Below, in pieces: positions 21,680-24,600 of a stretch of DNA of 64,000 bases. A program made the position numbers and the translations under genes. The notes beneath the pieces were generated by a model. The model was not told where the DNA came from. It worked only from the letters and a program-made list of their open reading frames with translations, and ran no database searches. The stretch comes from Bacteroidales bacterium (lineage in GTDB: Bacteria > Bacteroidota > Bacteroidia > Bacteroidales > P3), in the NCBI GenBank assembly GCA_017480785.1, contig JAFURZ010000013.1, forward strand, positions 287,197 to 351,196, written 5' to 3'. Positions within the stretch are counted from its first letter, which is position 1, and every line of letters starts with the position of its first letter.

Positions 21680-24600
21680 TCATTTCGATTTCAGTTCCAC
21701 TTCGTCGACCATCAGCCAAGCCTTCTCGCCGGCATAGGGGTGCCAGGGCGGCAGGGTGGGACGGCAGAGGAAGCGCAGCTTCACATAGCGCACCCCCTTG
21801 GCCTTGCGGGGCACGAGGTGGTAGCGCAGGCGGCGGCTGTCGCCGTAGAGATTGGCGGGGGGATGCGGCAGGTCGAGGCTCTGCCAGGGGCTCCACTTCA
21901 CGCCGTCGGCGCTCCAGGAGGCCTGCACGTCGAGGGGTTTCATCACCCAGTCGGCGGGGCTGTGGCTCACGCCGGCACTGACCTCGCCCACCGTGGCGGC
22001 TTCCTTGAGGGTGAGGGTCAGGGTGACGGTGTCGGCGCCGCTATAGCCCACCCACCCGTGCCGCCAGTCGCCGGGGACGGCGCGGCGGAAGTCGGTGAGC
22101 ACCGTCGGGAACCCGTCGTCATAAGGGGCGGTCGCGGGGCACGAGGCAGCCACGTCGGTCACCACCAGGTGCAGCCCGTCGTCCTCGTCGGCATACAGCT
22201 GCTGCTCTATATCGGGGTGCGGGCCAAACCCTTCGTAGGGGTTCTCCGAGAAGGAGAAGACGGGGTCGAAGATAAAGCGGTAGCGGTAGGTGCTGTCGCC
22301 GCTGATGGTGTAGCGCCCGGCCACGCCGGGGCCGCAGGTGGCGGTACCCAGAGGTGCCACCCGGTGGGCTACGGTGACTGTATAATAGCCATCCTCCTGC
22401 ACATCCTTCCATCGTCGTGCGGCGGTGAGCACCGTGTCGTTCCAACGGCGCACGCTGAAGTTGAGCGGCCCGCCTGCCAGATGTTGCTCTTCCGACCACC
22501 TGGGGCCGATGACCGTGAGGGGGCAGGCGCCGCCCATGAAGCGCACCCAGTCCACCTCGCGGTTGCCCTGTTCCTGCGGCACCACGTACTGCGGCGCCGA
22601 GAGGTCGTACAGGCTCTTGTACCAACGACTGTAGCGCCGTGCGGCACGCCGGTCGGGATAGGTCTCGTGGATATTGCCGCTGAAGAGGCAGCCCGTGTAG
22701 CTGGTGTCGAGGCCGAACTGCACACCCAGCATGGGCAGGGTGCGGAAGTGGCCGTCGGGCGAGACCAGGTAGCTCAGCTGCATGCGCCCGTCGGCGGCCA
22801 CCTGTATTATCTGCTTCACGCGCAGCCGCTGCCCGTCGGGGGTGGTCAGGTGCATCAGCATCTGCACCTCGGCGGTGTCCTTGCCCTTCGAGAGGGAGTT
22901 TTCTATGTCGAGCACACGTGTGTCAAGGTTGTCGAGTCCCTGCCACGCACGGGCACCGAGCGGGTCGACCAAGTCGTTCTCGGTCGGCGGCCGCCAGAAG
23001 TGGCACCGCAGCGGGGCCGCCAGCAGCTCGTGGCCTTCGACGCGATAGCTGGTGATGCTGCCGTCGGCGGGATTCAGCGTCAGCCTGAAATGGGCGTTCT
23101 GCACCACAAGACCCCGCTTGGTGGTGCTGATGCGGATAGCGCCTTTGACAGGCTCGATGCCATACTGCACCAGACTCTGCGGCACGGTGACGTTGTAGCG
23201 GCCCCGGGTGTAAACGGCCTGCACCTCCCAGGCGTGGGGATGCGGCATGCGGTCGGCGGCCAGGAGGCCGTTGGCGCAGAAAGCGTCGTCGTCCTTCAGC
23301 CCTGGCAACTCGCCCAGGTCGCCACCGGCGGCCCACCAAAGAGTGGATAGTGGGTAGTGGGTAGTGGGTAGTATCTGACCCCGTGTGCTACCCACTACCC
23401 ACTGCCCACTATCCACTAAGAATGCTTGGTCTATCCAGTCCCAGATGAAGCCACCCTGCAGCTGGGGGTACTTGTCGATGGTGTCCCAGTAGTCCTGCAG
23501 GCCACCCATCGAGTTGCCCATGGCATGGCAGTATTCGGCGATGATGTAGGGGCGCTTGTTCTGCGGGTTGCGGGCATAGTCGGAGAGGAACTGCACCGAG
23601 GGATACATGATGCTGACGATATCGGTGTTGCGGGCCAGCTCGGCACGCTCGTAGACCACCGGGCGCGAGGGGTCGTACTCCTTCAGCAGGCGGTAGGCCT
23701 CCTCGAAGCAGACGCCGTTGCCGCATTCGTTGCCCAGGCTCCAGGCGATGACGGAGGGGTGGTTGCGGTCGCGGCGGTACATATTGTAGATGCGGTCCAG
23801 AATGGGCTCCTTCCACTCCACCTTCTTGGCCAGCGAGTGCTCGCCATAGCCCTGGGCGTGGCTCTCCACGTTGGCCTCGTCCCAGAGGTAGATGCCGGCC
23901 GAGTCGCAGAGGTCGTACCACAGCTCGTCGTCGGGGTAGTGCGAGGTGCGGACGGCGTTGATGCCGAGTTCCTTCATCAGGGCGATGTCCTGCCGCATCT
24001 CGGCAGGGGTGACATAGTGGCCTCCGTACATCGAGTGCTCATGCCGGTTCACGCCGCGAATTTCCATCGGCCGCCCGTTGAGGCACAGCAGGCCGTCCTT
24101 GATTTCGACGTGGCGGAAGCCGATGCGCTTGGTGATACGCTCGGTCTCGCGGCCGGAGCCGTCATAGAGCACCACAGTGAGGTCATAGAGGTTTGGAGTG
24201 CTGTCACTCCAAGGCACAACATCTTCCACCCGCCGCTGCGGGAAGATGGCGAACCAGTCGCCCGGCTCGCACCGATGCCGTGTACCTATGCCGTTGAACA
24301 GAAGGTCGACATGGCCCCCCTGCACCTTGCGGTTGAGGTCCACCATCACATCAAGCACTCCTGTGCTCCAGTCATTGGTGTCGAGGTCGGCGAGTATTTT
24401 TATGTCGCTGATATAGGTCTGCGGGACGGAATAGAGCTCCACGTCGCGCGTGATGCCGCTCATGCGCCACATGTCCTGGCACTCGAGGTAGCTGCCGTCG
24501 CACCACCGCAGCACCTTCACCGTCATCCGGTTGCGCCCGGCGTGCAGGTACTTGGTGATGTCCAATTCGGCCGGCGTCTTCGAGTCCTCGCTGTAGCCCA

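Follow-up and report, generated by a model that had tools for sequence, protein, structure and literature searches.

The closest described systems include repeats of intracellular bacteria. The RPEs of Rickettsia are palindromes of 105-146 bp, present in intergenic regions and, in frame, within 19 genes, and the guanylate kinase of Rickettsia was shown to be translated with its RPE insert (PMC2229807). A later review gives 44 in-gene RPEs (PMC10969869). The WPEs of Wolbachia are also palindromes in frame in protein genes, with regions of about 170 nt and longer (PMC4224334). Among the small non-autonomous MITEs (ERIC, NEMIS/Correia and Yersinia repeats), in-frame gene fusions are described for ERIC, the Yersinia repeats and one NEMIS form, and the 155-bp NEMIS, which has no open frame, is almost only intergenic (PMC2229807). 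REPs are palindromes of 20-40 bp tagged at one end, and CGTC-tagged REPs have been reported from Bacteroidetes (PMC3733652).

The 76-bp element analyzed here, from a Bacteroidales genome, works like the protein-coding palindromic repeats of the RPE and WPE kind, with an architecture of its own. The likeness to RPEs proposed in the original prediction is supported by the reading frame, the dispersal of copies in and between genes, and the existence of element-free orthologues. As with RPEs, the palindromes lie both between genes and in frame in conserved protein genes (PMC2229807, PMC10969869). However, the element falls outside the 105-146 bp range, has four-heptad arms and is hosted by Bacteroidales; at the sites compared, it also stands in place of the native loop, and these loops are used by other repeats as well. 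Because length, architecture and host differ, we did not file it as an RPE, a separation that rests on published descriptions rather than on RPE sequence. The WPEs, likewise compared by description, differ in size and phylum. The MITEs resemble the element in being small and in being fused in frame to some genes, and the intergenic 155-bp NEMIS form recalls the two classes of copies found here. Several MITEs have target duplications, whereas none was seen by eye for the element, and its heptad architecture is absent from the MITE descriptions in the available part of that source (PMC2229807). The REP/RAYT systems are palindromic too, and our genome carries Y1 transposase genes, but the elements are larger than REPs and do not lie beside those genes. 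Our literature searches, with most subscription journals outside their reach, turned up no in-frame palindromic inserts reported from Bacteroidota, and the original prediction likewise knew of no described counterpart there.

The element in the window and across genomes

The window, which is the whole 64-kb stretch of DNA analyzed, contains a beta-galactosidase-like CDS of 1123 aa with Pfam GH2 domains (21680..25051, minus strand). Copy 1 of the element (76 nt, 23342..23417, minus strand) lies in this gene, in frame, between DQAFL and [10 protein letters not shown] of the protein. Its two arms (23342-23371 and 23388-23417) are 30 nt each, 97% complementary and 16 nt apart, and are made of heptamers of the form AGTGGNN, four heptads per arm in the 76-bp unit. 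It outscored the other of the two inverted repeats detected in a scan of the window (19342-19401, 18-nt arms and a 24-nt loop). The RNA is predicted to fold at -55 kcal/mol, whereas 200 shuffled sequences average -25 (z -9.2). The sense reading is TT/A GTG GAT AGT GGG CAG TGG GTA GTG GGT AGC ACA ... ACT. Copy 2 (76 nt, 21089..21164, minus strand) lies in the same frame in a PNGase F-like CDS (19931..21658, minus strand; N-glycanase N and C domains by HMM). The heptamer palindrome, its in-frame site and the same-length element in the next gene had all been predicted, and all three are there. The PNGase F-like gene also holds a one-armed heptad array (21317..21345, minus strand; plus-strand TTTCCAC, 4.1 copies) that reads EWKVESGKWK, with a frame less sure than that of the full copies because other long frames are open there.

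Four other heptad arrays occur in the window (3581-3612, 15227-15256, 25077-25110 and 61950-61984), of ACTACCC-like, AAATTGA, AAAGTTT and AAACTTT flavors, and period 7 is the commonest exact-run period among periods 4 to 15. A 63-nt unit (AATTAGAGTAATTCGCTTATAATTG...) is present in two intergenic copies at 26706-26827.

The genome of the window (2.25 Mb, 19 contigs) has 89 blastn matches to the element, both strands counted, and the pattern AGTGGNNAGTGG occurs 248 times (124 per strand) versus 8 for the reversed pattern (7 + 1). We took 36 stretches around the matches and the Y1 genes and, with the window, inspected 46 clusters. An alignment of 22 full copies places 20 in long ORFs and two between genes (L029:2443-2511 and L031:10703-10777). 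Outside this alignment are a tandem partial copy (L013:851-895), the partial copies of L035, the one-armed arrays and two length variants (L030:2508 and L031:2489), each read in frame within a long ORF. Across the 20 ORF copies, the mean identity of the 12-nt center is 61.6%, versus 27.5% for shuffled sequences, which shows that the unit was dispersed and not formed anew at each site. The uvrA- and radA-like genes hold almost identical copies.

HMM searches identified the hosts of all ORF copies but one (19 of 20; L025 is without a match). They are RarA, MiaA (near the start), UvrC, UvrA, DapF, a radical SAM protein, the dihydroorotase PyrC, TruA, RadA, RdgB/HAM1, TrmB, a UvrD/PcrA-like helicase, IleRS, ValRS, an anaerobic ribonucleotide reductase, LeuRS, an FAD protein, PNGase F and GH2, with some matches, such as those of the helicase and the radical SAM protein, under the curated cut-off of the family. 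The search gives domains for the FAD protein, which we take to be L-aspartate-oxidase-like. In our reading of the HMM tables, a profile or domain match flanks the element on both sides in at least 15 of the 20 hosts. One-armed arrays, whose frames are less certain, were found in ORFs matching PanC, Mur ligases, NAD kinase, a NUDIX protein and NqrA. Searches of four stretches (L016, L019, L021 and L026) against Rfam gave no match at the elements. An Acido-Lenti-1 match of 42.6 bits lies at L021:3532-3577 (minus strand), just downstream of the RadA-like gene.

At E 1e-5, the 76-bp DNA matches 29 of 120 genomes of the genus, including its own. The wider pattern ARTKGNNARTKGNNARTKG is present in 112 of the 120 (220 versus 15 control hits in the own genome), a loose pattern for which control hits equal or exceed pattern hits in some genomes. 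Where relatives are named, they are for the most part MAGs of uncultured Bacteroidales, many of rumen origin and some obtained from horse feces. Over the order, heptad arrays are patchy, with at least one match in 236 of 295 genomes and none in the three genomes of another genus of the same family; this patchy spread rules out the arrays as a trait of the genus alone.

One coding frame shared by the ORF copies

Repeated AGTGGGT heptads bring TAG into each of the three frames, and the opposite arm read in sense has all frames open. All 20 ORF copies of the genome share one open sense frame (xxA GTG GRT AGT GGG SAG TGG ...), so the count of in-frame cases that the original prediction had called for yields many more than the two of the window. 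It is the last base of sense heptad 2 that keeps the shared frame open: C (seven copies) or G (13 copies) stands there in place of T; in copy 1 it is C (plus-strand G at 23404). No other frame is open along the 76 nt in 18 of 20 copies, and one more is open in the TruA copy and in copy 2 of the window. The base pair that heptad 2 would form here with the other arm is lost throughout the 20 ORF copies, whereas both intergenic copies have it. Overall, 88.4% of the cells in the hairpin are paired and no covariation above shuffles was detected (score 0.037 versus 0.039), so that a hairpin kept by compensatory change is unsupported.

We extended the analysis to 60 full or near-full copies from other genomes of the genus, which are most of the near-full-length matches among the matches listed. 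Hosts were classed by ORF length and frame rather than by HMM naming. ORFs of at least 150 aa contain 43 of the 60 copies, and all 43 are in the same sense frame as the copies of the own genome (for L220 and L275, once a match shorter by one base is accepted). This is the only frame open across the element in 30 of the 43. The ORF of L234 stops 14 codons past the element and may be a broken gene. The other 17 copies are without a usable frame and appear intergenic. Their neighbors are mostly complete-looking ORFs that end or start beside the element, and the intergenic status is less sure for L243, L261, L262 and L271 because a neighboring ORF opens inside the element. One intergenic site by RsmI-like genes is filled in four genomes (L264, L265, L269 and L270, in G090, G071, G042 and G067) and, as listed, has a YebC-like gene next to it in three of them; the genes flanking L264, L265 and L270 are presumably YebC- and RsmI-like pairs, judged from their termini.

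Combining both sets, the heptad-2 base is G in 36, C in 26 and A in 1 of the 63 ORF copies, and T in 18 and G in 1 of the 19 other copies (Fisher p 3e-17), a contrast that is partly circular because T closes the very frame used to call a copy coding. No copy was seen inside a gene in another frame or in reverse, a count that could miss genes already broken by one. The sense variants of heptad 2 that the ORF copies have in common suggest that ORF copies descend from ORF copies, i.e. that they form a coding-competent lineage.

Element-free orthologues and replaced loops

We compared six sites with orthologous genes (GH2, IleRS, PyrC, TruA, DapF and PNGase F), and element-free orthologues are present at all six. 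At the first five, the native loop is replaced, net in frame. For instance, among 31 GH2 loci with at least 59% identity, 21 have a short loop of 2-7 residues, eight have repeats and two have a longer loop without a recognized repeat. The segment is thus not universal among close homologues, the check on which the original prediction had staked its claim. None of the eight repeats is of the kind of the window element: they have AATTGAA arms (L054, L055 and L063), an AATTGAA left arm with a GACCTCC right arm (L049), AGTGGAG (L059), a one-armed GTTAAAA array (L056 and L058) and a CTCACCCC-type palindrome (L066). The window protein has 26 residues at this site versus 2-7, mostly 3-4, in the short-loop relatives: it has gained about 22-23 residues net and lost the native loop. 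The predicted addition of about 25 residues therefore holds for the length of the in-frame segment and overstates the net gain, and the loop was replaced rather than interrupted. The best solved GH2 relative (3dec) has a short loop at the element site, as does the best IleRS match at the IleRS site.

In IleRS, 17 of the 28 loci with both flanks keep the native six-residue loop (CDQADT-like) and 11 have it replaced, a count that omits L182 (one flank) and L184 and L186 (no row). At PyrC site 2, 15 of 30 rows have the native length of 27-30 nt (two rows represent a single place); the other 15 exceed it, and by eye 11 of those show repeat arms. TruA and DapF have short native loops in some relatives and several distinct repeats at the same spot in others, with anchors missing in 5 of 31 TruA rows (L278, L285, L287, L289 and L298) and 3 of 31 DapF rows (L308, L311 and L312). 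In the PNGase F-like gene, copy 2 is absent from the two nearest orthologues (L049 and L067), which have a different sequence there.

All gaps listed are multiples of three at the GH2, IleRS and PyrC sites; the GH2 gap-length run took in 11 of 30 loci, the remaining 19 being on the other strand of the fetched piece. In the own genome, the net gain relative to the native loop is +57 nt in IleRS, +48 in PyrC, +57 in TruA, +66 in DapF and +66 to +69 in GH2. These gains imply a 76-nt element together with the loss of 19, 28, 19, 10 and 7-10 nt, respectively. We saw no target duplication by eye at the five sites with empty orthologues, where the lost native sequence could hide one.

Two other kinds of repeat occupy such loops. 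A CTCACCCC...GGAGAGGGG palindrome, read as TPxPSPxGEG, lies in frame in enzyme loops and forms a second family with the same habit (L066 in GH2, L282 in TruA, and L016 and L021 in the UvrA- and RadA-like genes). Nonamer repeats of AAGGACCTT, read as KDLKD, replace the same loops of other species in IleRS (L167, L169, L170 and L183) and TruA (L304).

We also asked how the states are distributed over an IleRS DNA tree of 26 genomes, built with the insert excluded by a quick method with SH-aLRT support alone. The native and replaced states need seven changes, at least five of them forced by starred branches, and the labels are no more clustered than shuffled ones. The pattern fits recurrent replacement, loss or interspecies transfer alike. 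A single ancestral replacement was rejected on the seven changes, five of them forced, a result that interspecies transfer could mimic. In PyrC, only the right arm differs between species, being of the CTTTCCA type in some and the CTTTCAA type in others with an otherwise similar insert, which points to homogenization within an arm. The replacement of loops, the several repeat families per loop and the fixed coding frame all go beyond the original prediction.

Persistence and movement of the element

In our interpretation, to which we assign a probability of about 0.8, the element belongs to a dispersed, non-autonomous palindromic repeat and acts as a selfish insert that codes for protein. Such a selfish repeat would do a gene no harm in a single orientation and frame and so would persist in tolerant surface loops, where it would be translated as about 25 extra residues. 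Selection would remove insertions in other frames or in folded parts, and slippage within an arm would homogenize the heptads and make new flavors. Replacement instead of plain insertion is unexpected from the RPE reports and counts against the selfish-insert reading.

New copies may arise by templated copying into a break or gap, with template switching. This is a guess, held at somewhat less than even odds, which we prefer because 7-28 nt of native sequence are lost and no target duplication is seen by eye. One RVT_1 match, at the cut-off, represents reverse transcriptase in the genome. For movement, the main alternative is a transposase acting in trans, which we consider slightly less probable.

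The most probable rival is a MITE- or REP-like element that, moved by a genome-encoded transposase (e.g. Y1/TnpA_REP), would have inserted at random and been filtered by selection, the native loop being lost later. We hold it as a tentative alternative. Small elements can be mobilized in trans, the element is palindromic, dispersed and also intergenic, and the genome has three Y1 transposase genes above the Pfam cut-off. However, none of the three has a heptad hairpin beside it, the nearest one-armed array being about 1.7 kb from the third, and a Y1 transposase as partner of the element is therefore unsupported. Transposition also has against it that no target duplication was seen and that native loop sequence is missing at all five sites compared.

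The other explanations fare much worse. Low-complexity loops might instead grow in place, by tandem-repeat slippage and, for the palindromes, by strand switching, with no movement at all. The one-armed heptad arrays are common and the PyrC arms homogenize independently, as such local expansion would predict, but it accounts poorly for a non-repetitive 12-nt center common to unrelated genes and for near-identical copies in the uvrA- and radA-like genes, and we judge it improbable. Marginally less probable still is that the inserts were co-opted, as mRNA-hairpin regulators or new protein contacts, and are kept by positive selection. In favor are the strong predicted mRNA hairpin and inserts that recur in several species at matching loops of a given gene; against it stand the lack of compensatory change, the many relatives without an insert, and the fact that different repeat kinds serve equally well at one site. 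An assembly artefact, conceivable since related records are titled MAGs and hairpins can disturb assembly, is very unlikely, as in-frame copies occur in many separate genomes, some at the same positions with diverged sequence.

Beyond the selfish insert itself, we put forward a broader and more speculative proposal, which we think is rather more likely to be wrong than right. Housekeeping enzymes of the genus may have a set of landing loops. Any small repeat family active at the time (AGTGGGT, AGTGGAA, AATTGAA, AGTGTTC, AGTGATG, AAGGACCTT and CTCACCCC types) would repeatedly take the place of the native loop there, precisely and in frame, via copying into a gap and not transposition, so that repeat DNA would be a standing source of new protein loops.

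Selfish DNA that is read through in essential proteins is best known from Rickettsia and Wolbachia, which are reduced intracellular bacteria. In these Bacteroidales, in-frame repeats are frequent, and 120 genomes of the genus offer filled and empty orthologues and a clear frame signature. Whether selection does no more than tolerate the inserts, by what route they move and whether repeats contribute to protein-loop evolution become testable questions. Ribosomes would need to pass an mRNA hairpin of about 30 bp in essential genes, and some seemingly lineage-specific loops of Bacteroidales proteins are repeat DNA.
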